Source of the DNA: Blastopirellula marina DSM 3645
GTDB taxonomy: Bacteria; Planctomycetota; Planctomycetia; Pirellulales; Pirellulaceae
Assembly: GCF_000153105.1 (NCBI RefSeq)
Contig: NZ_AANZ01000002.1
Location: 248,001-312,000 of the forward strand
Direction of reading: 5' to 3'
Length of the DNA stretch: 64,000 nt
Below, in pieces: positions 18,960-35,977 of the stretch (its first letter is position 1; each line of letters starts with the position of its first letter). The notes under the pieces are model-generated. The model saw only the letters and a program-made list of their open reading frames with translations. It was not told the origin of the DNA and did not search any database. Position numbers and translations under genes: made by a program.

Positions 18960-20150
18960 CCGTAGCAACTCCCGAATGTCGAGAAAAAAAGAAGGGGGCG
19001 TTTATGCTATCGAGCTCGATTGCGGCAAACAACTAGCGGGACGTAACGGGGCAGATGGCGCGAAATATCAACCGTAATGTTGCCGATTGTCGCCTGGATG
19101 AGAATCCGCTACGCCTAGGAAACCTGGGTAATTTTCGCGGAAGTAAAATTCGCGACCTGCCGCAACAGGAATTCCAAACTAAACTCTAGACCGAGCGGTC
19201 CCCCTAGTTAAAATTTAGAGACTGCGAAATTGAACAGAAGAAGTAGGCCAGCGCAAACCAGTTCCCATTTCGCTCCCTTAGCGACATCTTACCGCTGCGG
19301 CGATGGATTGAGGAAGACGCTCAAATCCGAAGATGGAATACCAAGGGTCGTTAAATAGGTAAGCGGAGGGAATTGCTGATTCGCTTTCGGTTCACTGCAG
19401 TTTATTGCGTCTTCCTAAGTCGTCGCATTCGGTCCAAATTGGCAGCAGAATTGTCTTTCGTTGTCAATCACCCCATAATTAGGTGGACAATGCGCGTTCG
19501 ACGCAAGGAAAACTCATGGAAACCGAACAATACGTTTGATTAGAATAGACGGCATAACCGATTCCTTAGTATCCGCGTTGCGTATTGGGGATGTCAGTGA
19601 AGCAGAAAACAGCGGAACAAGCTTGTCGTTCAAGCGGGTTTTTGAACAAAACCAATGAATGGCAAGTTTGGGATGATTAGGCAAAGTCTGATTGGGCATT
19701 TGCGAAGTTGAACAAGCAGTTCAAGTTCTCATGTCAAATTGGATCGGCAGGATGCCGTCGCAAGACTCAAGAGTTGGCGGACGTAGCACGTAGGAAAAAT
19801 ACGGCGTCTTGGGGAAGCGGCGTGGTTACGGCAAATGGATCGAGGTCGTAACGCGTTTATGTCTAATCTCTTACCAAATGTCCACGGACGGCGATGCGTT
19901 ACTAGTTCGGTGGTAGACTTGCTTGGTTTGATGCCAAGCCGCCGCGAAACTCAACGAGAGAAGCACTGAGATAAATTGATCCTTTTCGCCGCCTCATCAG
20001 TAGGTGGATCGCAACATCCGCACGCAACGCCTTGTCGCGTTACCTCGGCGTCGGAAGCGATCAAATTGGGTGGAATGACGATTGATGCTTTTTGGACGCT
20101 TCCTCGACTAAGAAAATCCCAACTCACGTTTTGGCGAGTGAAGGAGTGCA
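18960..20150. other. Large gene-free gap upstream of rpoD
   Basis: Almost 1.2 kb with no coding frame over about 80 codons, no recognisable tRNA and no transposase remnant. It is visibly richer in A and T than its neighbours. One small hairpin (GCTTGG, 19921-19926, with CCAAGC, 19934-19939) and a GACCG/CGGTC repeat near 19190 are visible. It could hold a long rpoD leader, an RNA gene or decayed DNA; none can be shown from this sequence. Confidence 0.5.
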
Positions 20151-21710
20151 ATGTTGTACGACGCCCTGATTGATGATTTTGAAGACGATGACGCACGCGT
20201 TCGCAGCCCCCGAGATTTTGACGCTTCGGTCGAAGTGTTAGATGGGGATAGCGACGACACCCCTTTGGTCGATGTCGATTCTGACAATGACAACAGCGTC
20301 GATGATTCGTCCGACGAATTTCTCGGCGATGACGGCGAGACTTGGTCGGATGACCCGGTTCGCATGTACCTGACGCAGATGGGCGAAATTCCGCTGTTGA
20401 CCCGTCAGGAAGAAATCTTTCTGGCTCGCAAGATCGAGCTGACTCGCGCCAAGTTCCGCGGCATGCTGCTGGAATGCGATTACGTCATTCAAGACGCGAT
20501 CAAAGTCTTGCGTCGCGTTCAGGATGGCGAACTGCCGTTCGATCGCACCGTGCAGGTCTCGGTGACCGATCGCTTGGAGAAAGAGCAGATCCTCGGCCGT
20601 TTGCCCCACAATCTGAAAACGCTCGATACGCTGCTGAAACGCAACTATCGCGATTACCGGATCGCCACCAGCAAATCGCGGAGCGAAAGCCAACGCGCCG
20701 AAGCTTGGGTTCGTCTCGGTCGTCGTCGTCGTCGCTCGGTCAAGCTGGTCGAAGAACTCGGTTTGCGTACGCAACGCATCGAATCGAAGATCGGTACGCT
20801 CGAAGACTTCTCGAAGCGGATTGATGAGCTGAAGGTTCGCATCGACGAGCACAAGAAGGCGAAAGGGCACGAGTCGGAACGAGCCGACTGGATCGCCGAG
20901 TATCGCAACATCCTGGTCGCTACCCAGGAAACGCCGACCAGCCTGCGTCGTCGCGTCAACCAATTGAAGGTGATCTACTCCGAATACCAGCAAGCCAAAC
21001 GCGAGCTGTCGGAAGGCAACCTGCGCCTGGTCGTCTCGATCGCCAAGAAGTATCGCAACCGCGGCCTCAGCTTCCTGGACCTGATCCAAGAAGGCAACGC
21101 CGGTCTGATGCGAGCCGTCGACAAGTTTGAATACCGTCGCGGTTTCAAGTTCTGCACGTACGCGACTTGGTGGATTCGTCAGGCGATCACTCGCGCCGTG
21201 GCCGACCAAAGCCGCACGATTCGGATTCCTGTCCACATGGTCGAAACGATGTCGCGCGTTCGCAACGTCGCTCGCCAACTGCTGCAGGAAAAGGGACGCG
21301 AACCTACTTTGGAAGAAACGGCCCGTCGCGCCGGCACGACCGTCGAAGAGGCGCGTCGCGTGTTGGCCATGAGCCGCTATCCGATCTCGTTGGATCGTCC
21401 GGTCGGCAACAGCGAAGATAGCCAGTTTGGCGATTTGCTGCCCGATGGCGAAGCCGAAAGCCCGGCGATCGGCGCCGCTCAAGAGATGCTGCGGACGCGC
21501 ATCAGCCGCGTGCTGAAGACCCTCAGCTATCGTGAACGGGAGATCATCAAGCTCCGTTACGGTCTCGGCGATGGTTACAGCTATACGCTGGAAGAAGTGG
21601 GACACATTTTCAAAGTGACCCGCGAACGTATCCGCCAGATCGAAGCGAAAGCGGTTCGTAAACTGCAGCAACCAAGCCGCAGCCAAGAGCTGGTCGGTTT
21701 CCTCGACTAA
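20151..21710 (+). CDS. rpoD: RNA polymerase sigma factor RpoD/SigA (group 1)
   Basis: A 519-residue primary sigma factor. A 60-residue acidic leader ([23 protein letters not shown]) precedes region 1.2 ([20 protein letters not shown]). A basic non-conserved region with [12 protein letters not shown] follows. Regions 2.1-2.4 are intact ([40 protein letters not shown]), then region 3 and region 4.2 ([20 protein letters not shown]). ATG 20151 has AAGGAG five bases upstream. A strong terminator follows, so it is probably monocistronic. The long gene-free upstream gap may hold its leader. Confidence 0.97.
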
Positions 21711-21742
21711 GCTTTCCCGCTTAGCGCGAAATAACAATCGAT

Positions 21743-21779
21743 AAGCCGACGGCCGCTTCTGGCGACGTCGGCTTTTTTT
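21743..21779 (+). terminator. Rho-independent terminator of rpoD
   Basis: GCCGACG (21745-21751) pairs with CGTCGGC (21766-21772), followed by seven T residues. Confidence 0.85.
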
Positions 21780-21792
21780 ATGGAATGTGCGT

Positions 21793-22305
21793 ATGTCGAT
21801 CGGCGAGTCCCCCAATCCATTCCGCTCGCCGGATGACAGCGGCTCATCCGAAGCCGACCCAGCGACTCCGCCGTCGGTCGCACTCGTTTATCTCTTCTCT
21901 GCGCTGCTCACGCTCTTTCAGCTCTGCGTCGCCGTCGCCCTGGCCGTCAACGCGCACGATCGCACCCAGGTCGTCATGCTCTTTCCTTATCTGCCGCTGA
22001 TTTTGGCGGTGGGACTGTGGTTTGGCGGCCGCGCCGTCTGGGCGTCGGCTCGTTACTACCTGGCCTTCGCCACCGTCTCGTCGGCACTCTTCTTTTTAGG
22101 CTCTCTGGCGATGGGTCACATTTGGCCCGCCGCCTATGCCGGGGTTAACACGCTGCTCTGCGCTTTGCTCTATTGGGAGCTTGGCCGATCGGCCGCGCGG
22201 GCTTATTTTGGTTTCATCTGTCCACGCTGCGGCGCTGATCGCCCGCGTGGTCTCGACATTCTGCAAATCGAAGTCCGCTGCCGTCAGTGCGACTTTCGTT
22301 GGTAA
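21793..22305 (+). CDS. Membrane protein with C-terminal zinc ribbon
   Basis: A 170-residue protein with four predicted membrane helices (for example ALVYLFSALLTLFQLCVAVA and YYLAFATVSSALFFLGSLAM) and a short cytoplasmic tail carrying CPRCG and CRQCDFRW, a classic four-Cys zinc ribbon. Start at ATG 21793. The stop is only 16 bp before the TTG start of the methyltransferase, so the two are probably co-transcribed. Function unknown. Confidence 0.7.
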   Translation: MSIGESPNPFRSPDDSGSSEADPATPPSVALVYLFSALLTLFQLCVAVALAVNAHDRTQVVMLFPYLPLILAVGLWFGGRAVWASARYYLAFATVSSALFFLGSLAMGHIWPAAYAGVNTLLCALLYWELGRSAARAYFGFICPRCGADRPRGLDILQIEVRCRQCDFRW

Positions 22306-22321
22306 CGCAAGGAAATCCCCT

Positions 22322-23158
22322 TTGTCGAATGACGAAGCGCCCCATGACTCGTCTTCCAGTGCGCTCGACCACAATCGAGCCGCTTGGGATCGCAAAGTAA
22401 AACAGCGCGATCGCTTTGCGCGACCCGCGAATGATGAAGACTTTCGCGATCCGCTAGCGCTGGTCGATCGCTGGGGTTGGCTCGGCGGCAGCGTCGTCGG
22501 TCAGCGCATCCTGTGTCTGGGCGCCGGCGGTGGTCGACAAGGTCCGCTGTACGCCGCCGCAGGCGCCGTAGTAACGGTGGTCGACATCAGCCCCGCTCAG
22601 CTCGAGCTCGATCGTCAGGTCGCCGCCGAGCGGCGATTGGCGCTAACGACCGTCGAAGCGTCGATGGACGACCTCTCGATGCTCGGCACGGCCGACTTCG
22701 ACGTGATCATCCATCCGGTCAGCACTTGCTACGTCCCCGACCTCCGTCCGGTTTATGCCGAAATAGCGCGGCTGCTAGGTAACGGCGGGCTCTACATCAG
22801 CCAACACAAAACGCCGACCAGTCTGCAAACCGACATTCGCCGCAGCCCCGGCGGCTATGAATTGATCGAGCCCTACTATCGCCGCGGCCCGCTCCCGCCG
22901 GTCGCCGGCAGTCGCCATCGCGAAGAAGGGACGCTCGAGTACCTGCATCGCTGGGAAGATCTGATCGGTCTCTTGTGCCGCACCGGGTTCGTGATCGAAG
23001 ACCTGATCGAACCGCTGCACGCCAAAGAAGAAGCCGAAGCCGATTCCTTCGCCGACCGCTGTCGCTATGTTGCTCCGTACGTGCGGATCAAAGCTCGCCG
23101 CGTGGGACAAACGGCCCAGCAAGAGAGCCGCGGCTCGCTCTGGTTGCCGGGCAGCTAG
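22322..23158 (+). CDS. SAM-dependent methyltransferase (class I)
   Basis: A 278-residue methyltransferase. Motif I is GQRILCLGAGGGRQGPLYAA, followed by VVTVVDISPAQLEL (acidic loop end), and the motif IV region FDVIIHPVSTCYVPDL. I start at TTG 22322 because AAGGAAATCCCC lies at ideal spacing; a longer reading frame would begin inside the upstream gene in another frame. The C-terminal half (ELIEPYYRRGPLPPVAG, HRWEDLIGLLCRTGFVIEDL) looks like UbiE-type class I enzymes found in cyanobacteria and planctomycetes. Substrate unknown. Confidence 0.85.
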   Translation: MSNDEAPHDSSSSALDHNRAAWDRKVKQRDRFARPANDEDFRDPLALVDRWGWLGGSVVGQRILCLGAGGGRQGPLYAAAGAVVTVVDISPAQLELDRQVAAERRLALTTVEASMDDLSMLGTADFDVIIHPVSTCYVPDLRPVYAEIARLLGNGGLYISQHKTPTSLQTDIRRSPGGYELIEPYYRRGPLPPVAGSRHREEGTLEYLHRWEDLIGLLCRTGFVIEDLIEPLHAKEEAEADSFADRCRYVAPYVRIKARRVGQTAQQESRGSLWLPGS

Positions 23159-23211
23159 TCGACTGTGAACCGCCCAGTATTCGGGTGGGTCCGAAAGGGA
23201 CCTCAAAGAAT

Positions 23212-23556
23212 CTAGCGATCCGGCACACAGATAACTTCGCCCGAAGGGAGCCGGTAGGCCGCGCCAAGCCGTTCTCCTTCTCCGCCGAGCATCTGATCCG
23301 AAATTTCAAAACGCTCTAGCTTCGCATCCTGATTTTCAATCGAATCCATCTTCGAATTGCTGGTCTGGCTAGCACTGTTGGCGCCGCTGGTCGACGCTGC
23401 AAACGGCAACCTTGCGATAACCGCTAAAAGCATCGCCACGGCGAAGACCATTGCCACGTCAAACAAGTTGGCGACTCCATCCAGGGGATCTTCTTCGCCC
23501 CCGGTCAACAACTTGCGATGTCGGCCAACTCGCCGACCGCCCAATTTCTTAGACAT
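23212..23556 (-). CDS. DUF2149 protein (partner of CobN/HmuS-like system)
   Basis: A 114-residue protein with a single membrane helix (DVAMVFAVAMLLAVIARLPF) preceded by DPLDGVANLFD and ending in GAAYRLPSGEVICVPD, the profile of DUF2149. The start overlaps the end of the MotA/TolQ-like gene by 8 bp, indicating translational coupling. As I recall, CobN-like genes of Bacteroidetes heme operons (HmuS) and of methanogens are likewise followed by MotA/TolQ/ExbB and DUF2149 genes. Probable role: an ExbD-like part of the membrane complex that energises the CobN-like protein (inference). Confidence 0.85.
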   Translation of the reverse strand: MSKKLGGRRVGRHRKLLTGGEEDPLDGVANLFDVAMVFAVAMLLAVIARLPFAASTSGANSASQTSNSKMDSIENQDAKLERFEISDQMLGGEGERLGAAYRLPSGEVICVPDR

Positions 23557-24184
23557 AGGCGGGATCCTGTTCGCTTTCTCGCGTTTGCGTCAGGCACTGA
23601 AATACGAACTCGGCGTTTGCAATATCCTGGGCGTACACTTGCCGACGAATCGCGCCGATTGCGAAGAAAACTCCGCCTGCGAACAATCCCAACACCGTCG
23701 TACTAAACGCCACGACCAAATTTTGCGCCAGCGATTCGAGGTCGCCGTGCGAAATTCCCAGCAGCGCGGGGCCCAACGGAATCAGCGTGCCCGCCAATCC
23801 CAACATAGGTGAAATGCGGGCGAACAAGTTTAGCCGCGAGATTCGGCTCGCCGCTTCGAGTTCGATATCAGTGAGGCCTTTTTCCAAAGTCAGAGAACTT
23901 CCCGCTGAAGCTTCGATGCATCGTGCGAAAATGCGTAGCAGTCCCGTATAGTCGCCGGAGCTGAGAAAATTCCTACCTGTTAAGGCTGGATCCTCCGTGA
24001 GAGATTCTGTTTGCAGCTTTTGGAAATTACGCCAAGATCTGACATTGGCTCGGCGCTCACCCAGCTCGCGAAGCAGGCCCCCGATTTCTAACAACGCCGT
24101 CCCTCCGAGCACAAGCAATCCAATAATCACCGGATACAATAGGGCGCTCGATGCGAGATATAGTATGCTTGTGATTACGTCCAT
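23549..24184 (-). CDS. MotA/TolQ/ExbB proton channel family protein
   Basis: A 211-residue ExbB-like channel subunit. Three hydrophobic segments are visible: an N-terminal helix (ALLYPVIIGLLVLGGTALLE), then RISPMLGLAGTLIPLGPALL with the conserved Gly-rich channel helix, and LVVAFSTTVLGLFAGGVFFA. The start codon abuts the CobN-like stop codon (TAAATG) and its 3' end overlaps DUF2149, so all three are translated from one message. ExbB-type channels couple proton flow to work in the periplasm; here the client is probably the anchored CobN-like protein. Confidence 0.88.
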   Translation of the reverse strand: MDVITSILYLASSALLYPVIIGLLVLGGTALLEIGGLLRELGERRANVRSWRNFQKLQTESLTEDPALTGRNFLSSGDYTGLLRIFARCIEASAGSSLTLEKGLTDIELEAASRISRLNLFARISPMLGLAGTLIPLGPALLGISHGDLESLAQNLVVAFSTTVLGLFAGGVFFAIGAIRRQVYAQDIANAEFVFQCLTQTRESEQDPAYV

Positions 24185-27100
24185 TTACTCTCTCGGCGCC
24201 CCCCGGCGAATCATATAGCCCGCGCCTAACAGAATCAGACAGACGAGCGGCGTCAGAACGGCTAACCAAGGAAAAGGAGCGTCATTGGGAGTGTCGACAA
24301 CTTCTTCGGCTTGCGGCTCCAGCTTAGCCCCTTCCACTTGTTCGGACGGCTTATCCGCCTGAGCGACTTCGGTTGGCCGTGGTGAAGCCATCGAAGAAGA
24401 AGCGGCGTCATCGGCTTCAGCGATCACCGTCGACTCGGTGATGCGACTTTCATAAGCGGCCAATAACTCAGCCATTGGCTGCGAGGCGCCTGGCTGAAGC
24501 AACAGTCGCACGAAATCTTCCAGCTTGTGATTTCCGCCTCCACGCAAGCCGCCTCCCTCGCCATGCAATGCAACCGACTCAGCGTAAGCTTGCGCGATTT
24601 CTCGTTTCGTGGCGTCGTCTGGATTCCAATATCCTTTTCGAATGGTTTCCAGCAGCACTTCGGTCATATCCTGAAAAGCGAATGGATTTTCCGCCTCAAA
24701 CCATTCGCGAATTGCTAAATTTTTGGTGTCACGCATGTAGACGTTGACAATTTCCTCCCAATTCTCGTCCGAGACGCTGCCGGGACGCATGATGGTCCAT
24801 CCCATTGCATTTGAGACATGGACCGAAACTTGATCGGCGCCGGCATAACCTTCTTTCATCATCCCTTCAATCCATTTGCGATTGAAGAGACGAACGCGGA
24901 AATCGCGCCGCAGCGCGTCTTCCGCCGAAATCATGCGGGCCTGATCTGGATCACGCACATCGGTCAAGATGAACTGCGGCTCTTTACCCGTCAAGTGTTT
25001 GACGGCTAGACACAAACTACCCCCGTGATACCAAACATATTTGTTGGAAAGCGGGCTCCGAGTCCGATCGGACCAACTGCGCATGACGATCTCGGTCCCC
25101 TGGATCTGTCGGTTGTAAACCTCCGGAGCAGTTTCGCCCCACATCTCGTCGGTATAGACATGCCGTGCATGTGAAAGATAGGTTTCCATCAATTCTTCGC
25201 GGCTATCCCATTCGCCAGAGCGCTCAACAAGATAGTAGTAGCCCGCGCTTCCCATTTGTCCTTGCGGATATCCGAAAATGCGCGCCTTCGAGAGCACCTC
25301 GGCTCGCTGAGGGGTCTCTCCCTTCGCCTGCAACTCCTCGGCCACGCGCAGGCTGTTTGCATGGAGAAAATTGCTTGCTTCTTTCAGCTCTGCGACCATC
25401 CGAATCGCTTTGTCGATCAAACGTAACCGGGTCGGCAACATATCACGATAATAGCTTTGACTCGCGATAAACACGTCAATCCGCGGGCGCCCCAGTTCGG
25501 CAGCCGGGATCAATTCGACATCGACGACTAAGTTTTGCGCATCCCAGACCGGACGGACGCCGATCAAGTACATGATTTGCGATTCCATGACGCCATAGTC
25601 TTGAAACGTCGCAAAAGAATTTAGCGTGAAACCAATCTTCTCGGGATAACGTCCCGTCTGATCTCGTTGTTGCTGCAAGAAGTCGTCGATCAATTGCTTG
25701 CCCAACTCCCAAGAGGGACGAGTCGGCACTTCTTCCGGATTCATCACGTACATATTTCGCCCGGTTGGCAAGACAGCCGAGTTACGATCAGGACTAGCGC
25801 CAGGTCCCGGTGGAATATATTTTCCGTCGAGCGCGTTCACGAGTTGATCAAGTTCCATCGTCGTCTGAGCAAAACCGTCACGCAGACGAAGCGCCAACTC
25901 AAATTGTTCCGTCAATTCATCGCTTAATTCGTCGTTTGGAACACCGCCGCCAACAGCGAGCGTCGCGTCGAGCGGAGAGAAATCTTGCTCGACAATTAGC
26001 TTCAATATTTCTTCTCCTCTGGCGCGAAGGTACTTTTTTCGATCACCATCGGTCAGCGCTTCGCCCGGCGGAACTTCGATCACTTCGCCCAGGGTTTCAA
26101 GAAAGCGACTGCGCAAGCATGTCGCCAGCCAGGGAATCAACAAGTCATTCGTCGGGGGCTCTCCAAAGACGTGCAGACTGATCGGCGTCGTTTCCGTATG
26201 AATCTCATGCAAATAGGCAAGCAGCTTTTGAATTTGTTCGGGCGCCAACAGTTTTCCATCTGCGGGACTCTGCTGCAAATCCTGGTCTAGGTGAAGCGCC
26301 AAGTATTGCCGAGTCACTGCTTCTCGAAATTTCTCTTTCAGGGCGCCTTCTTCGAGAGTGATCCATTTGTCGATGTCGTTATGCAAGTTCAACATCTCGT
26401 CCGACAACTCGGCGGCGACCGACGGAGGGACAAGATGATCAATTAGCAATGCATACGCGCGACGCCTTACAGGTGAAGACTCCCCGAGATTGTTGATAAT
26501 CCAAGGATTAATGTTCGGCGTATCGCCCATTGCGATATCGGGCCAATCATGCCCCGACAGGCCCGTCGGCTTACCGGGAAGCAAAAACTCCGTTCCATGC
26601 GTACCGAAATGGATCATTGCGTCGGCGCCAAATTCTTTCTCGAGCCAAAAATAAGTCGCTAGATAGTTGTGCGGCGGCGGAACGCGAACGTCGTGGATCA
26701 GCGAAGTATCGTGGGCTTCGCCGCGCAGCGGCTGCGGGAGGAGAATTACATTTCCCAGATCGATCCGAGGAATCACAATATACTTTTGATCTCCATTCTC
26801 CCAAACGAGAAAACGGCCCGGCGCTGGCCCCCATTTCTCCACGATCTGTTGTTGAAGATCCGCCGGCACTCGTTCTTCTAACCACGTCTGATATTGCTCC
26901 AACGGAACCAGCACGGCGTTTCCACTACGAGCGAGACGATCTAAAACGCCGGGCGCCCAAATGCCGATTTGACGACCGCGATCTTGCATCAAAGCGATCA
27001 ACTCATCCTCATTCGCCGGAACGCGGTTTAGCCGATATCCCTCGTCACGCAATCGATGTAAGATTCTGACCATGCTCCGCGGCGCATTCATAAACATGCC

Positions 27101-28285
27101 GGTGGCGCTGCCGCGCATCAATTCCGCTTTCCCCATTTCCCGATCGTAATAGATGATCGCGACTTTCTTATCCTTCTCGGACTGAACCCCTAATTTCGCC
27201 CAGGCAATTGCTCTGGCCGCCAAATGACGAACTCGGTCAGGGATGGGTAAAAACGCTTCATGACCGCCGCCGCCGTACTCCGTGCCAGCGGCGACCTGAG
27301 GTTCGATCGCGCCAAGGACCTCTTGCCCAACGATATGAAACGCCATTTCGCTAGAAGAAAGGCCCTCCAGCGAAACTTGCCAATCCGCAATCGGTTGCTG
27401 GCGCATAAAGATCGAATGCAAGTGGGGAACTCCGATCTCCTTGCGCCAATCCACCGCTTCGCGGCTATGGCAGGTATGAATAAACGCATTCGGTTTAAAC
27501 TCGCGAACATTCCGTTCGTAGTCTTTCCCAAAGTCCACCATTGCAACCGCAATTCCGCCTTGGAGCTCTAGCTCGCGAATGATCGCGGCGACGACGGCCG
27601 GTTGTTGGAACGCCAGATGAGTCCCATGAACGGCAACAATAAATCTCGGCAAGTTTTCAACGTCGCGTCCGCTTTCTCGAGCCCAACGAAGATACTCGCC
27701 GGTATTGGAAAACATTCCATCATGGTCCGGATGATAAAGCCCGGCCATCGTATCGGCTTCCTCCGGTGCGATCACCGCCCCGGATTTGCCGAGATAAGTC
27801 GTCGAGATATAGATCAGCATTCGCCGCAGATTCTCTGGAGTCGATCCATAATAGCGACTGAGATCGGGGTCACTCTCCACCATTCCCGACTTGGCGAGTT
27901 CGGGAAGATCCTTCTCGGCAATTCCCGATAACGAAAAGACGCGAAGTTGTGGATTTACCTCCTTGGCAGCTTTTAACAACCGCTGGTACTGAGCGCGGTT
28001 TTCATCACGCGTATGCTGAAGGAAGATGACGTCATACTCGCCAAAATCAACTTCTTCAGCGGCGATCGCTTCGTCGGTGACATAGTCGCACGTCAGTCCA
28101 AGCGGCGCCGCAAACGGTTGCATCGCCTCAAAGACGCCTCCGTGCAGGCCCACGAACGCTAACCGCTTTTGAGTTACTTCCATCTCTCCCTCTTGAGCAT
28201 AAGCCGCAGAGGATGACATTTGCCAAGCTATCGCTGAAACGATGCAGATCACGATCCGCGCAGTAATCACTACCGAGTTTTTCAC
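24185..28285 (-). CDS. Secreted, membrane-anchored CobN/HmuS-like chelatase-family protein
   Basis: A 1366-residue protein of the CobN/BchH family. Signature blocks include DAMIHFGTHGTEFLLPGKPT, then GDTPNINPWIINNLGESSPV and YALLIDHLVPPSV. Unlike cytoplasmic CobN it has a signal peptide (MKNSVVITARIVICIVSAIA to about SSAAYA) and a C-terminal membrane helix (PWLAVLTPLVCLILLGAGYM followed by IRRGAPRE) after a 70-residue acidic linker. The catalytic bulk should therefore sit in the periplasm. It uses a GTG start. No CobS/CobT or BchI/D ATPase is nearby; instead a proton-channel gene and DUF2149 follow. Close to HmuS-type proteins proposed to remove metal from heme; insertion chemistry cannot be excluded. 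Confidence 0.85.
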   Translation of the reverse strand: MKNSVVITARIVICIVSAIAWQMSSSAAYAQEGEMEVTQKRLAFVGLHGGVFEAMQPFAAPLGLTCDYVTDEAIAAEEVDFGEYDVIFLQHTRDENRAQYQRLLKAAKEVNPQLRVFSLSGIAEKDLPELAKSGMVESDPDLSRYYGSTPENLRRMLIYISTTYLGKSGAVIAPEEADTMAGLYHPDHDGMFSNTGEYLRWARESGRDVENLPRFIVAVHGTHLAFQQPAVVAAIIRELELQGGIAVAMVDFGKDYERNVREFKPNAFIHTCHSREAVDWRKEIGVPHLHSIFMRQQPIADWQVSLEGLSSSEMAFHIVGQEVLGAIEPQVAAGTEYGGGGHEAFLPIPDRVRHLAARAIAWAKLGVQSEKDKKVAIIYYDREMGKAELMRGSATGMFMNAPRSMVRILHRLRDEGYRLNRVPANEDELIALMQDRGRQIGIWAPGVLDRLARSGNAVLVPLEQYQTWLEERVPADLQQQIVEKWGPAPGRFLVWENGDQKYIVIPRIDLGNVILLPQPLRGEAHDTSLIHDVRVPPPHNYLATYFWLEKEFGADAMIHFGTHGTEFLLPGKPTGLSGHDWPDIAMGDTPNINPWIINNLGESSPVRRRAYALLIDHLVPPSVAAELSDEMLNLHNDIDKWITLEEGALKEKFREAVTRQYLALHLDQDLQQSPADGKLLAPEQIQKLLAYLHEIHTETTPISLHVFGEPPTNDLLIPWLATCLRSRFLETLGEVIEVPPGEALTDGDRKKYLRARGEEILKLIVEQDFSPLDATLAVGGGVPNDELSDELTEQFELALRLRDGFAQTTMELDQLVNALDGKYIPPGPGASPDRNSAVLPTGRNMYVMNPEEVPTRPSWELGKQLIDDFLQQQRDQTGRYPEKIGFTLNSFATFQDYGVMESQIMYLIGVRPVWDAQNLVVDVELIPAAELGRPRIDVFIASQSYYRDMLPTRLRLIDKAIRMVAELKEASNFLHANSLRVAEELQAKGETPQRAEVLSKARIFGYPQGQMGSAGYYYLVERSGEWDSREELMETYLSHARHVYTDEMWGETAPEVYNRQIQGTEIVMRSWSDRTRSPLSNKYVWYHGGSLCLAVKHLTGKEPQFILTDVRDPDQARMISAEDALRRDFRVRLFNRKWIEGMMKEGYAGADQVSVHVSNAMGWTIMRPGSVSDENWEEIVNVYMRDTKNLAIREWFEAENPFAFQDMTEVLLETIRKGYWNPDDATKREIAQAYAESVALHGEGGGLRGGGNHKLEDFVRLLLQPGASQPMAELLAAYESRITESTVIAEADDAASSSMASPRPTEVAQADKPSEQVEGAKLEPQAEEVVDTPNDAPFPWLAVLTPLVCLILLGAGYMIRRGAPRE

Positions 28286-28345
28286 TTGCTGAACGCTCTG
28301 GGAACGAAAGTTCGATTGGACTAAGCGAGCATATTCAACGGGAAC

Positions 28346-29281
28346 TTAATTGCTGATAATATCCCCGGCGGCTCTTGTGCCCATCGCCTGGTAGGCTGTC
28401 GAATCGGTCGTGTCGGCGATGAAGCGGACCGAACCATCTGCAAACGTCAGATTGGCCCCGCCGGGATGTGCGCTGCGAGCAGAGAAATCGTTACAGCCGT
28501 TGTTGGGACCCTTGCAGTCAAAACGCTTGTCATTAGGAGAACGAATCGTCGCGAACATGTTGAACTCCGGCGGACCGCCCAACCATAGTGTGGCGCGATC
28601 CGATTTGATCGGCGCAGTCGCTTGGCAACCGTCAATATCGTTGGCGTCAGTCACATTTCGTTCAAAGATATAATTATCGCGGAGACTGCCGGCATCGTTA
28701 TCACCCTTGAGCGTTTCACCAACTGCGATCGTGTTCGATGTGCCGTCCGTTGTATCTCGCAGTCCAAAAAACGTATTGTGCCCGAACAAGCCGGTGCATT
28801 CGCGTTCGCGACATTCGCACGTAATGCCTTGGTTTCCTAAATAGTTGGTTGGCGCCCATTCGTCCGAATTTCGACCAACCGGATCGCTAGGGCAAATATA
28901 GCTCGCGACGTCAATTCCGCCGGCAGCCTGGAAAGCGGTATTCACATTCGCATTCGTGTCGAGATCGATCAAGGAATAGTCGACCAATTGATAAATATTG
29001 TTTTGCTCAACAAAGGGGAGCAGAAAAACAAGAAAGCCGAATTGATGGCGATAGGATGGGCCATCTGTGCCCGATTCATAATGCGCAGGCGGAAATGCGC
29101 CATGGGTGTCGTGATAAGTATGCAGCGCGATGCCAATTTGCTTCAAGTTATTCGTGCATGACATCCGCCGAGCCGCCTCCCGCGCTTGCTGCACGGCCGG
29201 CAACAAAAGCCCAATGAGAACGCCGATGATCGCAATCACCACCAATAGTTCGACCAACGTAAATCCGTAGTTCTTTCGCAT
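28346..29281 (-). CDS. DUF1559 protein, prepilin-type, in the CobN-like operon
   Basis: A 311-residue DUF1559 protein, start MRKNYGFTLVELLVVIAIIG at 29281 with AGAAGGGCAAG upstream. The QQAREAARRMSCTNNLKQI helix and the C-terminal HPGGANLTFADGSVRFI motif (H-x9-DG) are present. A Cys-rich loop (GITCECRERECTGLFG) is not found in the other three DUF1559 proteins of this window and could bind metal. It lies 60 bp before the CobN-like start on the same strand, unlike the usual DUF1559 + lipoprotein layout, suggesting recruitment into this system. Confidence 0.85.
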   Translation of the reverse strand: MRKNYGFTLVELLVVIAIIGVLIGLLLPAVQQAREAARRMSCTNNLKQIGIALHTYHDTHGAFPPAHYESGTDGPSYRHQFGFLVFLLPFVEQNNIYQLVDYSLIDLDTNANVNTAFQAAGGIDVASYICPSDPVGRNSDEWAPTNYLGNQGITCECRERECTGLFGHNTFFGLRDTTDGTSNTIAVGETLKGDNDAGSLRDNYIFERNVTDANDIDGCQATAPIKSDRATLWLGGPPEFNMFATIRSPNDKRFDCKGPNNGCNDFSARSAHPGGANLTFADGSVRFIADTTDSTAYQAMGTRAAGDIISN

Positions 29282-29346
29282 TTCTCGCTTGCCCTTCTCA
29301 ACAGTCTCGTTAGATATCGTCAAACATATGCGCCGCGATGCGTCTA

Positions 29347-29613
29347 CTATCGCCGTCCCGCCGTAGCTCTCACTTTCGCTGCGCACTTCTCATCACACAC
29401 GATGAAGCCATTGCCGTGGTAAGTAATCAATTGATTCTCGGCGACGTTTTCGATACGTCTCCCGCAGGCCTCGCAGGTTCCCGCTCGATTCAACGGGGTT
29501 GTCACTTGAGGAACAGGATAAGGTGAACTGCTTCCATCGCAGCCCACATGACCGAGTAATGCACCACAAGCCATGATGAGAAAAACATTCGCCGAAAATT
29601 TATCCAAACGCAT
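29347..29613 (-). CDS. Small Cys-rich lipoprotein, TRASH-like metal-binding motif
   Basis: An 88-residue exported protein. The signal MRLDKFSANVFLIMACGALL ends GHVGC; I start at 29613, although ATG 29637 eight codons upstream is possible. The mature part holds CEACGRRIENVAENQLI and YHGNGFIVCDEKCAAKV, i.e. CxxC followed by CxxxC with aromatic residues, a TRASH/YHS-like metal-binding arrangement. It is the first gene of the minus-strand operon leading to the CobN-like protein, 65 bp before the DUF1559 start. A role in metal capture or sensing outside the cell is likely but unproven. Confidence 0.7.
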   Translation of the reverse strand: MRLDKFSANVFLIMACGALLGHVGCDGSSSPYPVPQVTTPLNRAGTCEACGRRIENVAENQLITYHGNGFIVCDEKCAAKVRATAGRR

Positions 29614-30271
29614 CACGATCTGACCGTCCTCGTTCATGCTACGGAGTCACACTCGGATGAGTCGCCTCCACGATTTGACTTTCCTGTTCTTCAAGAAGGA
29701 GTTTACCTAGCACATTCTGGGCCATTGGATACTTCGACTTAAACCACCGAATCTACCGGGGCTGTTACTCAGACGACCGATCGCAAATGTCGCCGCTATC
29801 GACACGACTGTTGAATAAACCGACGCCTGCAGCTTTCACTTCGCAAGCAGCAAGGATCTTGAGAGACTGAAATCGCGAAACTCGCTCACGTACCGGAGCG
29901 CCGATTAGGTTGTTTCAGGGATTTACATCCAACGAAGTCATTAGTGGGTTCAGGACGTAGAGCGGCACATGGTGAACTCCATTGCACGCCACTTTATGCC
30001 TTTCAACATCCTTGATACTTCGTTACAATCTATTGCGACTTTTTTACAACAATTGCAGCGATTCCGCATTTACAACCTCTGGCAGCTTCCTCGATAGGGA
30101 GAGTGATTGGGGGTCTGCCGGAAACGCGGGATTTGGAATAACGGGCGCAACAGAATGCTTGTACGCTAATGGAATAGACGACGTCCGTTTGGCTGCTATC
30201 CGGTTTGGTGGTGAAGAGAAAAGTGTTCTGCGATTGTCCAGTCCACGGGTATGCTGAGGGGGGATCCCGGC

Positions 30272-30335
30272 TTCAAAAAAAAATGCGTGCGGTCCAGTCC
30301 ACTCCAATTTCCTGTTGTCTGGTCCGGCAACAGAG
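30272..30335 (+). repeat. Dispersed GTCCAGTCC repeat, copy A
   Basis: An A-tract followed by GCGTGCGGTCCAGTCCACT, then TGTCTGGTCCGG. The block recurs about 200 bp downstream with the same order of parts, and in inverted orientation within the 60 kb array region. Confidence 0.6.
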
Positions 30336-30471
30336 GTTCGCCCATATTCGCAACCGGGTAGATTGGGCAAAGTTCCGAACAAACGCGGCGCTCGGGAATT
30401 CCATTTTTCGAATGCCCGTTTGTCCGGCGCACAACAGGGGGGGCAGGGGTCGAAGTGTCGGATGAAGGTAC

Positions 30472-30537
30472 GCCCAGAAAAAATGCGCGGAGTCCAGTCC
30501 ACTCCGATTTACTGTTTTCCAGTTGTCCGGTCATTTG
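30472..30537 (+). repeat. Dispersed GTCCAGTCC repeat, copy B
   Basis: An A-tract, then GCGCGGAGTCCAGTCCACT and later GTTGTCCGGTC. It matches copy A at 30272. A shorter fragment (TTGTCCAGTCCACGGG) lies at 30235-30250. Confidence 0.6.
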
Positions 30538-30564
30538 GACTTCATGATTCATTCGACATTAGAA

Positions 30565-33500
30565 TTATCGATTGAACAACTCGTTCAGCCCTTTGTTGAT
30601 TCCCTTTTCGATCAGCCCTTGGGCGGCGCCGCCGATCGCCTGGCCGGCGATGTTTTCGATCGCTCTGGCGTCCAGCTTCGGGCTTTCCAGCGTTCCGCCG
30701 ATCGGCACGTCCAGGTTTTTGCCGCGCAGTCCGGCCAATGTCGGATTGCTTTGAATCCATGACTCTTGTACTGGGATCGTCGCAATCATCTCAATCGTAT
30801 GGTCGACGCCGACCGAGCCTTTGCTGACGATTTGCACTGAGTCGATCTGCATCGTCAGGTTTTGGTGATAGACGCGTCCGCCGGTCATTTGTATCGGCAC
30901 TTGCTGCTCCGGCATGCGCATCAGCACCGTCTCGTTCGGATTGATAGCGCCGGGAATCTGCTTCTTGGCGAGCGCTTGAATCTGCTTGGCGATGACGACG
31001 TATTGGTAGGCCAATGGACCAGGACGGACTTCGGCGCCATGGATGGTCAACGTTCCGGACGCTTCACCACCCATCGGGTTGAAGAGAGGGAAATCGCCTT
31101 GCTGTACGTCAAGCGAGAAGCGTCCTTCTGCGCGGGTCGAATCCGCCAACAACGGCGCGGCGAATTTCATCCAGCCTTGGCACATCTGCGGCGTGATCGC
31201 CAGATTATCGACGATTCGGCTTTTCGGTAGTTGCAACAGCGGCGGGTTCGAGAGCAGCGTCATCCGCGGTTGGGCGTTCAGCTTTCCGCCGCTGATGTCA
31301 AATCGCAAGGGATCAAACGAGACAATGCCCTGGTTAAGATTCGCTTTCACGTTGGCGGCGCCAATCGGCACGCCGTACAACATCGCTTGCCGCCAACCAA
31401 TCGAACCGGCGGCCGACAGTTGCGGCGAAAGCCATGCGAAGGCGCCGGTCGACTGCGAATCTGGCGTAGTCAAAGGGCCTGAGATCTGGAACGGCGATTG
31501 CTGCTTGCCGGTCAACTTGACCTCTTGTCCAGCAAACGCCGCGATCACCGGCGCGAGTTGATCCCAGTCGTAGTTGGCGTCGCCTTGCAAGTGGGCGACC
31601 GGCGCAGTTGACCAAGCTTGAATGTTCCCGGCCGCGGCGACTTGGACGGCAGTCGTCTTCAATTGCATTTTCTCGATGATCGCCGTGTCGGTTGCGTCGA
31701 TGGCGCAGTTCAACTCAAACGCGACGCTCGGCTCGCGCCAGACAACGTCGTACTGCGATCCTGCGGTGACATCGGTCCGCGTACTTACCTGCTGCATCTG
31801 TGGGGTCGCTGCCCGCGATAAAGCGCCCAACTGGAAGTTCTTGATCTCGCCGACGATTCGGGCGGTGACGCCATCGGCGATTTGCTGAAAGTTCAAACTA
31901 CCGGCCAATTCTCCCGACGGACGAAACGCCGGCTGCGACGCCCAGCGTTTCCACTGCATCGTCCGATTCAAATCAAGCCGATAGGCGATGCTGCCGACGG
32001 CCGAACCTTTGCGAGTATCGGTCGCCGGCAAGTAGTTCACTTGCTTGCCGCGGGCCGAAATCGTGGTGCCCACTAATGTAAAGTTGGGCGCCAAGATGCG
32101 ACCATCTTCCAAGCCATACGCCAAGTCGCCATCGAGTTCGACGTTCGGTTCATAGAAGTTCAGCGTCGGCGAGCTAATTGCTAGATTGCTAAGCGAAGCG
32201 CGAATGCCGGAGATCGCAATCTGTTGCGGCGTCAAAGTGACGTTGGCCGCGGCGGCCGTCGTTCCATCGAGTCGCCAGTCGCCGAGATTCATGAGCCCCG
32301 CCAGGCGACCTTGCCAGTGAGCCAACGAGCCGTTGAGCTGCAACTTCAGCTGTTTCGGCTCGACTCCGCCGATCATGATCGGCGCCGCCAGCTCGAGCAC
32401 CAGCAGATCGTTGCCGGCGATCCAGCTTAAGGATCCCGCTTCAATCACCGAGTTATCGCGAATCGTCGAATTGAATTTGATTTCGGCGGCGTTGTCATTC
32501 CAAATGTCGACGCCGTCGCGAGTGGCCCGCATGTTGGCGCCGCGAAACGAGCCGGCCAAACTGGCGCTGTTGGCGCTTTGCCGATTGATTTGCACCAATC
32601 CGTCGGCAACGCCAGAAAGATCCACGCCCAGGTCCACAAACTGCGCCAATTCGGCCGATAATTTCGCCAGATCGACGGTCGCATGAATCTGGGCGCCGCT
32701 GGCGTCTCCCGTTCCATCCGCTTGTAAAAAACTAGCGGTCGCTTCGGCCCGCTGCAGTTGCAACCCGGCCGGACCTTGCACCAGCGTCAAGTTGACCGCG
32801 AGCGGATCGGGCCAGGTCACTTGTTGACCCGACACGAGCGCACCGACATCACTGACATTGCCGGTCGCCGAAATCAGTCCCGGTTGCTGCGGATCGTGCG
32901 CAAGCTTGAAGACCGCTTGTCCGGTTTGAATCACGGCGTCTTCACGCAGTCGCATCAGTTGCGGAAAGCGGGCGCCCATTTTTTCGAGGTCGATGGTTCC
33001 GCCTAAGCGCCAGGCCTGATTGCTGGCGGCGATCGGCGCCGCGGTGAAGTCGGTCAGTTGCGAGATCGGCACGTCGCCGTCGGCGACAAAGTTGGCGCCA
33101 AAGTCGGTCATCACGGCGACCTGCTCGGCCCGCAGGCGTCCCGCGCCATGCAGCATCTTGCCGCGAAATGCGATCTGTCCGCCGCCGACTTGTTCGGGGC
33201 CCAGCACCGCCGGCCAGAACACGCCGCCGATGATCGCTTGCATATCGCCGGAGACCGAATTTCCCTCGCTCGATTGCGCCAGTCGCAGTTTGCCGTCGAG
33301 TTTGCCTTGCGTGCGCAATTCGGTTTCAAACCGGGTCGCCAGCGCTTGGGCTAAACCAAGCGGCACGCTTTCGGCGATCACATCGACCGTCGCTTCGCCG
33401 CCGGCCAAGGTTCCTTGTGCTTGCAGTCGCCCGGTTTGTTCTCCTTGTTTCACGGCCGTCTGCAACGTGAAGTTTTGCGCGACGCCCCCTTCGGCAGTCG

Positions 33501-34125
33501 TCGTGGTAGCGAAATCGACAGCGCAATCATCCAACGACCATGTGTCGCTGGAGGTCGTTTCGCGGATTCGAATCGATCCTTCACGAACCGTCAGATCCAT
33601 TTTTGGAATCAGGGATGTGGTCGCGGCGTCGGCGACGGCGACATCGTGCGAGGTCTCATACTCGGCCGGCGGAAAGAGGATCGCTTCCAGATTGCTGCTC
33701 CCCGGCGAAACGACAAGTTCGGCGCTGGGCCGCATGATTTCGATCGTGCCTAGATCGTTTTGACTCCAGATTAGACTGAGGAACGATTTGCTGAGCTTCA
33801 GTTCTTCGACCGTTGCGACAACATTTCCCTCGACATCGGCGAGCGTGACGTCACGTACGATGGTCGGAGACATCCAACCGAGCGAAGCGCCGCCAACGGT
33901 CGCTTTGCCGTTAATCCCACCGGCGGCGCTAGAAACGGCGATTCCTAACAGCGGAGTCATCGCGATGATGCTGGGCGCTAGATAGAGCCCGGCCAGCGCA
34001 ATGACTAGCAGCAACCAGCGCCAGCTTCCGCCGCTACTTTTGCGGGATCTTTTGCGCTTTGGTTTCTGGGAACGATCGTAATCGTCATCGTAGTCTTGTT
34101 CGCGCGATTTTCGGTTCAGCGCCAT
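30565..34125 (-). CDS. AsmA/TamB-like envelope protein
   Basis: A 1186-residue protein. A basic, low-complexity cytoplasmic tail (KPKRKRSRKSSGGSWRW) precedes one membrane helix (LLLVIALAGLYLAPSIIAM), and the rest is a long run of short beta strands with GASLGW, LRAEQVAVMTDFGANFVADG and similar repeats, typical of AsmA/TamB/YhdP bridge proteins that form a hydrophobic groove. The C-terminal DUF-like part (YQYVVIAKQIQALAKKQIPG, AGQAIGGAAQGLIEKGINKG) is also AsmA-like. Start ATG 34125 has AGGA eight bases upstream. Likely moves or shields lipids between membranes; by family only. Confidence 0.75.
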   Translation of the reverse strand: MALNRKSREQDYDDDYDRSQKPKRKRSRKSSGGSWRWLLLVIALAGLYLAPSIIAMTPLLGIAVSSAAGGINGKATVGGASLGWMSPTIVRDVTLADVEGNVVATVEELKLSKSFLSLIWSQNDLGTIEIMRPSAELVVSPGSSNLEAILFPPAEYETSHDVAVADAATTSLIPKMDLTVREGSIRIRETTSSDTWSLDDCAVDFATTTTAEGGVAQNFTLQTAVKQGEQTGRLQAQGTLAGGEATVDVIAESVPLGLAQALATRFETELRTQGKLDGKLRLAQSSEGNSVSGDMQAIIGGVFWPAVLGPEQVGGGQIAFRGKMLHGAGRLRAEQVAVMTDFGANFVADGDVPISQLTDFTAAPIAASNQAWRLGGTIDLEKMGARFPQLMRLREDAVIQTGQAVFKLAHDPQQPGLISATGNVSDVGALVSGQQVTWPDPLAVNLTLVQGPAGLQLQRAEATASFLQADGTGDASGAQIHATVDLAKLSAELAQFVDLGVDLSGVADGLVQINRQSANSASLAGSFRGANMRATRDGVDIWNDNAAEIKFNSTIRDNSVIEAGSLSWIAGNDLLVLELAAPIMIGGVEPKQLKLQLNGSLAHWQGRLAGLMNLGDWRLDGTTAAAANVTLTPQQIAISGIRASLSNLAISSPTLNFYEPNVELDGDLAYGLEDGRILAPNFTLVGTTISARGKQVNYLPATDTRKGSAVGSIAYRLDLNRTMQWKRWASQPAFRPSGELAGSLNFQQIADGVTARIVGEIKNFQLGALSRAATPQMQQVSTRTDVTAGSQYDVVWREPSVAFELNCAIDATDTAIIEKMQLKTTAVQVAAAGNIQAWSTAPVAHLQGDANYDWDQLAPVIAAFAGQEVKLTGKQQSPFQISGPLTTPDSQSTGAFAWLSPQLSAAGSIGWRQAMLYGVPIGAANVKANLNQGIVSFDPLRFDISGGKLNAQPRMTLLSNPPLLQLPKSRIVDNLAITPQMCQGWMKFAAPLLADSTRAEGRFSLDVQQGDFPLFNPMGGEASGTLTIHGAEVRPGPLAYQYVVIAKQIQALAKKQIPGAINPNETVLMRMPEQQVPIQMTGGRVYHQNLTMQIDSVQIVSKGSVGVDHTIEMIATIPVQESWIQSNPTLAGLRGKNLDVPIGGTLESPKLDARAIENIAGQAIGGAAQGLIEKGINKGLNELFNR

Positions 34126-34364
34126 GACTTGCGTCCTGCGATAGGTAGCTATCAATAAAAAGGGATCTAGGCGCTGGAACTTCTACCGAAATCCCCCCCA
34201 AGACGCCAGACCAAGCCAAACTGCTAGCACAGGAAGTTTTTTCTCGCGGCCGCCGGCTTTCGCTCAAGTTTCCGCGTTCGGTTGGCGGGGTTGGGTTTGA
34301 CAGCCGCTTTCAATTGCTTTATTTACCTCCAGGTCGTCGGCGCACTGCCGGCAAATTGTTCTCC

Positions 34365-35318: not shown

Positions 35319-35405
35319 AAGTCGAGCGCCGCAGCGCGATGACTTCTTTCAGCGGCAAGCTGAAATTGGCGCATCGCGCAACGACTCTGACGACGGGAGC
35401 AAGCC

Positions 35406-35840
35406 TTATTGGGCTTCCTCAACCGTGACCTTGATCATCTTGTCACCCTGCTTGATCGCGTCGACCACGTCTTGGCCTTCGGTCACTTTACCGAAGACGG
35501 CGTGCTTGCCATCGAGCCAGTCGGTCTTCGTATGGGTGATGAAAAACTGCGAGCCGTTCGTGTTCGGGCCCGAGTTGGCCATCGACAACACGCCGGGACC
35601 GTCATGCTTCAAGTCGGGATGAAATTCATCTTCAAACTTGTAGCCGGGACCGCCGGTGCCGGTGCCGTTGGGGCAACCTGTTTGGACCATGAAGTCGTTG
35701 ATCACGCGATGGAATTTCAGCCCATCGTAGAACCCGTCGGCGGCGAGCTTCTCGAAGTTGGCGACCGTTTTCGGCGCCTTGTCGTCGTGCAACTGAACTT
35801 TGATCGTACCTTTGTCGGTCTCGATGGAAGCGACTTTCAT
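35406..35840 (-). CDS. ppiB: Cyclophilin-type peptidylprolyl isomerase
   Basis: A 144-residue cyclophilin without signal peptide, so cytoplasmic. The [20 protein letters not shown] and [20 protein letters not shown] blocks contain the catalytic Arg and the active-site Phe/His positions. ATG 35840 follows GAGGAG at good spacing; the first residues [20 protein letters not shown] are the usual start of bacterial PpiB. It catalyses cis-trans isomerisation of prolyl bonds during folding. Confidence 0.93.
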
Positions 35841-35977
35841 CGCGTCTCCTCTTTGCGCTAAATACACGGTGGGGCAATATCAGAATCCCCTATTTTAGCC
35901 CCATAACGATTGCTGCGTAACCGGTCGCACGAATCAACGGATGAGCACTCGATCGGCAGTCACGGCCTGTTCTGCTT

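Follow-up and report, generated by a model that had tools for sequence, protein, structure and literature searches.

Within a window of 64,000 nucleotides from the planctomycete Blastopirellula marina DSM 3645 (the whole stretch analysed; contig NZ_AANZ01000002.1, positions 248,001 to 312,000), five co-directional genes on the minus strand (23212-29613) form an operon that runs from a small putative lipoprotein through a DUF1559 pseudopilin, a class I chelatase-like protein of the CobN/HmuS superfamily and an ExbB-type proton channel subunit to a DUF2149 protein. As judged from its sequence and those of its relatives, this operon is real, conserved and clade-defining; it is an HmuS/BtuS-type operon in variant form, in which the catalytic site has changed and other outer partners have come in. 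We give about an even chance to the interpretation that its product is a metallo-tetrapyrrole de-chelatase of the cell envelope, a planctomycete member of the HmuS/BtuS branch. Both the substrate and the energy coupling are what we infer: heme (iron) is probably the first candidate, because the site-1 heme-ligand histidine and the catalytic His/Glu of HmuS are kept and because FeoB is available. The main features of the operon are listed below, with the evidence for each in brackets.

29347-29613, minus strand: small putative lipoprotein with a C-x2-C...C-x3-C pattern, possibly TRASH-like (clustering, alignment, Foldseek)
28346-29281, minus strand: DUF1559 (SBP_bac_10) pseudopilin of an operon-associated subfamily (Pfam, DUF1559 tree)
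24185-28285, minus strand: membrane-anchored class I chelatase-like protein of 1366 amino acids (aa), CobN/HmuS superfamily, own clade (Pfam, PDB match, tree)
28196-28285, minus strand: predicted N-terminal signal segment, residues 1-30 (...SSSAAYA-QE) (hydropathy; cleavage site by eye)
24206-24274, minus strand: predicted C-terminal transmembrane anchor, about residues 1338-1360 (hydropathy)
23549-24184, minus strand: ExbB/TolQ/MotA-type proton channel subunit, 211 aa, Thr133 and Thr163 conserved (Pfam, alignment)
23212-23556, minus strand: DUF2149 protein, 114 aa, one membrane helix with Asp33 (Pfam, alignment, model)

An earlier note on this DNA had proposed a five-gene operon with translationally coupled genes. 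The five genes and their common direction were confirmed, and the arrangement is kept beyond one genome. The chelatase open reading frame (ORF) opens with GTG; its stop abuts the ExbB start (0 nt between them) and the ExbB and DUF2149 genes overlap by 8 nt, a geometry that makes translational coupling plausible. Longer gaps separate the chelatase gene from the DUF1559 gene (60 nt) and the latter from the lipoprotein gene (65 nt). The DUF1559 ORF spans 28346-29386, with the prepilin start methionine at 29281, and the small-protein ORF spans 29347-29637, with an internal ATG at 29613 (giving MRLDKFSANVFLIMACGALLGHVGC...) that coincides with the end of the operon in the earlier note. At the loci of relatives, genes were called as longest ORFs, and distances between overlapping ORFs are approximate.

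Family, export and placement of the chelatase-like protein

The chelatase-like protein matches the Pfam family CobN-Mg_chel (PF02514; 1.2e-283) and its best match in the Protein Data Bank (PDB) is HmuS (9D26; 1.6e-145), while a second PF02514 match was not found in the genome (6.66 Mb, three contigs). The signal segment (MKNSVVITARIVICIVSAIAWQMSSSAAYAQ) and the C-terminal segment (FPWLAVLTPLVCLILLGAGYMIRR) reach maximum 17-residue Kyte-Doolittle means of 2.38 and 2.25, respectively; both predictions rest on this hydropathy measure (threshold mean of at least 1.6) rather than on a dedicated signal-peptide predictor. The signal and anchor that had been claimed for a 1366-residue CobN-family protein are thus both seen by hydropathy, and they are kept in the window clade, with the threshold passed at the N-terminus in 15/17 and at the C-terminus in 14/16 rows. 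By these features the protein is predicted to be an exported, C-terminally anchored protein of the class I chelatase type, with a soluble domain of about residues 31-1335.

Several known systems invite comparison. HmuS of the Bacteroidota hmuYRSTUV operon (PDB 9D26, PMC12583661) is likewise of an exported, anchored class I chelatase type, has His-538, Glu-577 and His-254 where the window protein has equivalents, and stands beside genes for an ExbB-type protein (HmuU) and a DUF2149 protein (HmuV). By contrast, the window protein falls in another clade, lacks the methionine-rich stretch, has Thr at the place of Met-79 and has lost His-1209 and Glu-1212, and its operon has pseudopilin and lipoprotein genes in place of hmuY and hmuR. 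The report that HmuS, by which gut bacteria take iron out of heme, is a heme de-chelatase dates from 2025, and according to the same paper reliable annotation is not possible for the majority of the other superfamily sequences (PMC12583661, Figure 8 legend). BtuS1 and BtuS2 are a third CobN-related type, predicted to be periplasmic and anchored and distinct from B12-regulated CobN (Rodionov 2003, cited in PMC6460266), and the BtuS type is involved in heme-iron use in B. fragilis (PMC6460266). The window protein shares their predicted location and anchor and differs from them as it does from HmuS, a comparison made by description, since the tree holds no BtuS sequences. Cytoplasmic CobN (with CobST) and ChlH (with ChlID) are homologous large subunits, but they have no signal or anchor, work with AAA+ partners and form separate clades. 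Among the papers listed by searches of open-access literature we saw none on a planctomycete CobN/HmuS-type operon, and the main texts of the two HmuS articles contain no mention of Planctomycetes.

To place the protein, we assembled 136 CobN-like ORFs of at least 800 aa together with three PDB references. Of 392 Planctomycetota genomes, 49 bear PF02514, and 38 of these supplied 40 stretches (L031-L070); the other ORFs came from 79 named loci and from 10 plasmid loci out of 159 matching plasmid records. Redundancy was cut at 62% identity, rows with fewer than 850 filled columns were dropped, and the gappy or over-extended ORFs L045, L054, L058 and L078 were left out, which gave a tree of 78 rows (a quick search, with uneven letter make-up flagged in 58 of them). 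The membrane-anchored forms make up one superclade (63/78 rows; Shimodaira-Hasegawa-like approximate likelihood ratio test, SH-aLRT, 100), separate from CobN and ChlH. It has two halves. Group I (28 rows, support 100) contains the window clade, HmuS and planctomycete HmuS-like copies, Acidobacteria and a Planctomycetes-Verrucomicrobia-Chlamydiae (PVC) set; group II (35 rows, support 97) contains Proteobacteria, anammox planctomycetes, Desulfobacterales, methanogens and anaerobic methanotrophic archaea (ANME). The window clade itself comprises 11 tree rows (support 100), all planctomycete except L080, which is from a Desulfobacterales metagenome-assembled genome (MAG).

Approximately unbiased (AU) tests on a 43-row subset, with groups named after the first tree had been seen, rejected a clade of the window protein with CobN (p 1.4e-36) as well as an exclusive clade with HmuS (p-AU 0.00023). 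Cytoplasmic CobN identity is ruled out by the former result, by the tree and by gene content: the genome has no CobS match and no CbiC, and its best score against the ChlI model is a generic 32.9 bits, under the cut-off of 467 (CobT and ChlD were outside these searches). The anchor and the ChlI score likewise speak against a Mg-chelatase ChlH. This agrees with the earlier view that the protein is not a cytoplasmic CobN, whereas the grouping with HmuS expected in the same note did not hold, the protein falling in a clade of its own; plain HmuS membership is ruled out by the second AU result together with the lost residues described below. By its placement the window protein is kin of HmuS rather than HmuS proper, belonging to the HmuS-containing half of the anchored branch.

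A protein search across 397 genomes of the class gave matches in 58 of them, with at least 50% identity in 18. Joining these matches to the earlier loci and removing six duplicates left 26 distinct clade loci, 25 of them planctomycete; for L205, L206, L208, L209 and L211-L215, membership was judged from 50-63% identity and motif rather than from the tree. The copy in genome G527, split over contigs, was left out; of seven copies with 38-40% identity, five were examined as sister-clade loci (L217-L221, see below). The window's own family is represented by Pirellulaceae bacterium KatS3mg110 (L074, the same protein as L207; genome G537, family f1). Other relatives of the protein are found in Botrimarina colliarenosi Pla108 and Singulisphaera sp. 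GP187.

The same data set contained further forms of the superfamily. L033, L035, L038 and L039 (genomes G058, G158, G005 and G037) encode ChlH-like chelatases that lack a C-terminal anchor and group with ChlH; the L039 gene sits after a gene for a VWA-domain protein, as ChlD or CobT would, and a Mg-chelatase or unknown class I system in Planctomycetota is possible. Two or three CobN-like genes stand in tandem in L096 (1087-16706, ANME-2), L111 (1480-16319, Methanolobus) and L143 (7965-15897, a Desulfobacterales MAG). In methanogens and their relatives (L103, L121, L128 and L135), CobN-like paralogs have the HFGTHG catalytic His stretch replaced and look like non-catalytic relatives.

Catalytic and ligand residues and the candidate substrate

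Residues were mapped with the HmuS numbering of PMC12583661. Four codons are central to the argument:

28013-28015, minus strand: His91 of the head loop, adjacent to the residue that aligns with HmuS Met-79 (a site-1 heme ligand); His in 16/17 clade rows and 9/9 added loci
27467-27469, minus strand: His273, equivalent to the HmuS site-1 heme ligand His-254, clade motif HxCH; 17/17 clade rows
26597-26599, minus strand: His563, equivalent to the catalytic HmuS His-538 (HFGTHG); 17/17 clade rows
25037-25039, minus strand: Tyr1083 at the place of HmuS His-1209, motif LSNKYVWYHGG; Tyr in 15, Phe in 1 and a gap in 1 of 17 clade rows

The catalytic His-538 and Glu-577 of HmuS are kept as His563 and Glu602, each in 17/17 clade rows. 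More broadly, the equivalents of His-254, His-538 and Glu-577 are each present in 43/43 group I rows (for His-254, in 26/26 outside the window clade), while a histidine equivalent to His-254 occurs in 0/8 CobN rows (one of them a gap) and in 5/76 group II rows. HmuS Ser-1014 is kept as S890 in 13/17 clade rows. The place of Asp-1208, His-1209 and Glu-1212 (HmuS motif LSLDHxxEFMGG) is now occupied by a conserved LSNKYxWYxGG, with Tyr in 15/17, Lys in 15/17 and Trp in 16/17 rows; in the window, His-1209 and Glu-1212 correspond to Y1083 and Y1086. The single gap in the Tyr1083 column belongs to L078, a broken ORF; in 9/9 added clade loci tyrosine stands there and the motif is readable as [KR]-Y-x-W.

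The clade has also gained histidines and a cysteine (H48, H91, H223, H270, C272 and H288). Each is found in 16 or 17 of the 17 rows but in no more than 10% of other group I rows, and they recur in the nine added loci. HmuS Met-79 aligns to T92, with the conserved H91 one residue before it in two alignments. A direct replacement of Met-79 by His had been hinted at by the alignment of L044; two realignments put H91 one residue off, and for this reason we describe H91 only as adjacent to the Met-79 place. L044 is one of four HmuS-like planctomycete proteins (with L040, L041 and L043, the last from the window's own family) that have an HGR neck and LSLDHVYEFMGG, are without the methionine-rich stretch, and carry Gln or His at the Met-79 place.

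The loss of His-1209 and Glu-1212 and the many His/Cys gained in head and neck would suit binding over catalysis, and some archaeal paralogs are without even the HFGTHG histidine; the chelatase-like protein could accordingly be an envelope sensor, store or carrier of heme or metal with no de-chelatase activity. We judge this improbable: His563 and Glu602 are kept throughout the clade and the replacing Lys-Tyr-x-Trp is itself conserved, which suggests a changed rather than a dead site.

A second alternative keeps the de-chelatase-like machine and changes its substrate, with cobalt being removed from or inserted into corrinoids, or Mg, Zn or Ni being stripped from chlorophyll- or F430-like tetrapyrroles. 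Its motif speaks for it, in that KYxWYHGG is closer to DDYFQYHGG of CobN than to DHVYEFMGG of HmuS, as does the genome's only PF00593 TonB receptor, which is on another contig and lies nearest to BtuB models but under their cut-offs. On an Azospirillum brasilense plasmid (L150, NZ_CP012918.1), a group II trio has nikR, an iron-type ABC transporter (FecCD) and a TonB siderophore receptor no further than 8 kb away; with such neighbours, group II members could act on a metal that is not iron. This alternative nevertheless seems unlikely to us, given that the clade with CobN is rejected, that the head-neck histidine is common to HmuS and not to CobN, that de novo corrin ring synthesis is not expected where CbiC is missing, and that no Rfam match at gathering threshold, and so no cobalamin riboswitch, was found in 20000-36000. 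Overall, the gene content argues against the known form of cobalt insertion in B12 synthesis and, with FeoB present, allows ferrous iron uptake.

Partner genes and flanking DNA

The ExbB-type protein matches Pfam MotA_ExbB (8.4e-10; 38.9 bits against a cut-off of 22.9) and its conserved threonines, which we take to be the pore threonines of an ExbB-type channel, are present in 76/76 (T133) and 68/75 (T163) sequences. The DUF2149 protein (Pfam match 3e-20) has a helix at 24-49 in a low-confidence model and a membrane aspartate that is invariant in all 80 rows with a letter there, out of 81 aligned. The two conserved Thr of the ExbB-type subunit and the invariant Asp in the one membrane helix of its partner are what a proton motor needs, and in these respects the pair resembles the ExbB-ExbD, TolQ-TolR and MotA-MotB motors; the difference is that DUF2149 is not detectably ExbD-homologous by our profile test, yet HmuV is termed ExbD-like in PMC10100974.

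The published assignment of HmuU and HmuV is to driving the receptor HmuR (PMC10100974, PMC12583661). On this model the window pair would be an ExbB/ExbD pair energising a TonB receptor, with its adjacency to the chelatase reflecting only joint use. Receptor genes are indeed frequent near such loci: TonB-receptor cluster C3 occurs in 41/61 other bacterial loci, as against 4/14 cytoplasmic-type, 0/33 archaeal and 0/17 window-clade loci, and the B. marina genome does hold one receptor. In 24/26 clade loci, however, no TonB receptor lies in the flanking 7 kb, or in as much of it as the contig covers (a receptor profile finds one in L056 and L080, with a Plug domain in L080), and the pair stays by the chelatase all the same. 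ExbB and DUF2149 genes lie within 6 kb on the same strand in 44/48 other bacterial loci with at least 2.5 kb on both sides, 15 of them without a C3 receptor, and in 9/24 archaeal loci that are long-flanked on one side or more (4/8 on both), compared with 0/14 cytoplasmic-type loci. An outer membrane of the Gram-negative type is absent from archaea. Among the 392 Planctomycetota genomes, DUF2149 occurs in 43, PF02514 in 49 and both in 38 (5.4 expected); a count by eye puts the two no more than 5 kb apart on the same contig in 36 of these 38. The genome also has ten ExbD genes of its own, and its lone receptor lies on another contig.

The persistence of the pair beside the chelatase, with or without a receptor and in archaeal loci, argues that the channel is tied to the chelatase and not to the receptor. 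The data speak for an ExbB-DUF2149 pair that serves the chelatase rather than HmuR, and we consider the receptor-energising alternative quite unlikely. The trio was said in the earlier note to occur in methanogens and in Bacteroidota heme operons, which is borne out by the archaeal loci and by the hmu operons (PMC10434189). Its suggestion of a machine driven by proton flow finds support in the link between the channel genes and the chelatase gene, while the energy coupling itself is conjectural and homology of DUF2149 to ExbD went undetected. Its statement that an outer-membrane receptor is lacking applies to the surroundings of the operon, where no TonB-receptor profile match lies within 7 kb (the models used did not include HmuY or HmuT), but not to the genome as a whole.

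In place of a receptor, most clade loci have a pseudopilin. The DUF1559 protein matches SBP_bac_10/DUF1559 (4.4e-55) and N_methyl (8.9e-9) in Pfam. Across the 26 clade loci, the same-strand upstream gene encodes DUF1559 in 19, another pilin-like protein in one (L053, counted as such from its prepilin motif; no Pfam match) and C19 in four, and the other two (L056 and L080) have a TonB receptor downstream; the lipoprotein gene is present in 14/26. A survey of planctomycete genomes for the five-gene order had been suggested earlier; the arrangement is kept beyond one genome, with DUF1559 and lipoprotein genes conserved across genera. With at least 151 DUF1559 genes in the window genome, a chance neighbour would be possible in one genome, but not for 19/26 loci of which 16 have one subfamily: those 16 and L221 form a single operon-only clade of 17 copies (support 99). 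An RHQ motif occurs in 13/17 members of this clade and [YF]RHQ in 0/30 best-scoring DUF1559 copies of the window genome, whereas total Cys number does not cleanly separate operon copies from others. A DUF1559 gene is also upstream in the sister-clade loci L217-L221 (one family, five of seven such copies) and stands at other positions in the HmuS-like clusters of L040, L041 and L043. The notion of a planctomycete-specific version can be kept in so far as the form with DUF1559 and lipoprotein is retained across genera; against it, other planctomycetes (L040, L041, L043 and L044) have HmuS-like copies with HmuS motifs.

C19 (L050, L055, L057 and L073) is a secreted protein of about 630 aa with repeated AFS/GFS motifs, directly upstream of the window-type chelatase; the L055 copy, when scanned, had no Pfam or NCBIfam match. 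The small protein likewise had no Pfam match over cut-off. In 8/8 aligned sequences it has an invariant Gly-Cys at the lipobox place and the C-x2-C...C-x3-C pattern of a four-Cys, possibly treble-clef-like site, although the window lipobox (GHVGC) is imperfect. A Foldseek search with its model (pLDDT 75) returned ribosomal chains of 60-odd residues (E 0.11-0.17), which we take to be L24e although the listing gives ribosome only, and the TRASH domain 2DAS (E 0.23); against the NCBIfam L24e model it scored E 0.06, under the cut-off.

Upstream of the operon, a palindrome scan gave one weak lead:

29798-29815, strand not assigned: imperfect palindrome ATCGACACnCGTGTCGAT, a possible operator about 0.2 kb upstream

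This is the best plus-strand site of the 64 kb window, and strong sites like it precede the operon in L075 and L076. Strong sites (at least 14/17) are confined to these three among 17 loci, and the matches in L053 and L079 mean little, because 12-matches occur about 15 times on one strand of the 64 kb window. The search for a shared operator gave a 16-mer scoring 35, against 40-45 in 10 shuffles, and the promoter and terminator scan gave no excess over shuffles. Two direct repeats (30278-30319 and 30478-30519; 42 nt, 86% identical, 200 nt apart) also lie upstream, one of them holding the dyad CGGAGTGGACTGGACTCCG. At the other end, a convergent gene for a SAM-dependent methyltransferase (Methyltransf_11; 22136-23158) faces the end of the operon and belongs to no cluster common to other loci.

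Proposed mechanism and its meaning

If the operon does encode a de-chelatase, a metal tetrapyrrole, most likely heme, would be held between head and neck by His273 and the clade-specific His/Cys (with His91 near the Met-79 place). In a next step the substrate would enter the body cavity; the residues that ligate the metal there and help to remove it would be His563 and Tyr1083 (with Lys1082 and Trp1085), not a His/His pair. Hemophores such as HasA are known to ligate heme by His and Tyr, and such a pair could suit ferric heme or another substrate. ExbB-DUF2149 might pass the proton motive force to the chelatase via its membrane anchor, the role that AAA+ ATPases have for cytoplasmic CobN and ChlH. 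The pseudopilin and lipoprotein would replace hemophore and TonB receptor in delivery and would take up freed metal: substrate could be carried or presented by the pseudopilin and metal accepted by the lipoprotein, after which ferrous iron would enter by FeoB.

Several observations weigh against this interpretation. Besides the rejected exclusive clade with HmuS, the clade does not keep HmuS His-1209, Asp-1208, Glu-1212, Gln-1198, Ser-1067, Trp-1202 or Gln-299, and the window protein has no methionine-rich stretch of the kind inserted in HmuS domain IV (at most 7 Met per 100 residues); given these losses, heme chemistry cannot be assumed. The operon holds no heme-specific gene and is patchily distributed, its gene occurring in none of the three same-genus genomes listed. 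The DUF1559 proteins of L077, L209 and L213 (3/19) belong to another DUF1559 lineage, so DUF1559 has been recruited more than once. For the motor, the comparison of DUF2149 with the ExbD profile (hhalign) scored 15.66 against up to 15.71 in 20 column-shuffled controls, and with one control scoring as high, ExbD homology is unsupported; Foldseek with the low-confidence DUF2149 model gave nothing under E 3. The pair is not nearby in 15/24 archaeal loci (short contigs explain some), and only 10/33 archaeal N-termini pass the hydropathy threshold. Finally, recombinant HmuS turned over heme with NADH and without HmuU/HmuV, and ATP was unneeded in lysate (PMC12583661), which means that proton-driven force is unneeded for that chemistry.

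A more specific proposal is that of a proton-powered class I chelatase, in which the ExbB-DUF2149 motor would mechanically drive a periplasmic Lys-Tyr-x-Trp chelatase, and a pseudopilin dedicated to this task, not a TonB receptor, would bring the substrate. We hold this to be rather unlikely as a whole; if it were true, the pair would also serve HmuS and the archaeal homologs, and HmuU and HmuV would be no receptor energisers at all.

The clade offers a natural experiment, in which a catalytic His/His pair appears to have become His/Tyr and a receptor to have been swapped for a pseudopilin while the proton channel stayed. It thereby makes two open questions testable, namely what role ExbB-DUF2149 plays for these enzymes and which residues decide the choice of metal and tetrapyrrole, and it may give one of the hundred-plus planctomycete DUF1559 pseudopilins a concrete functional context.

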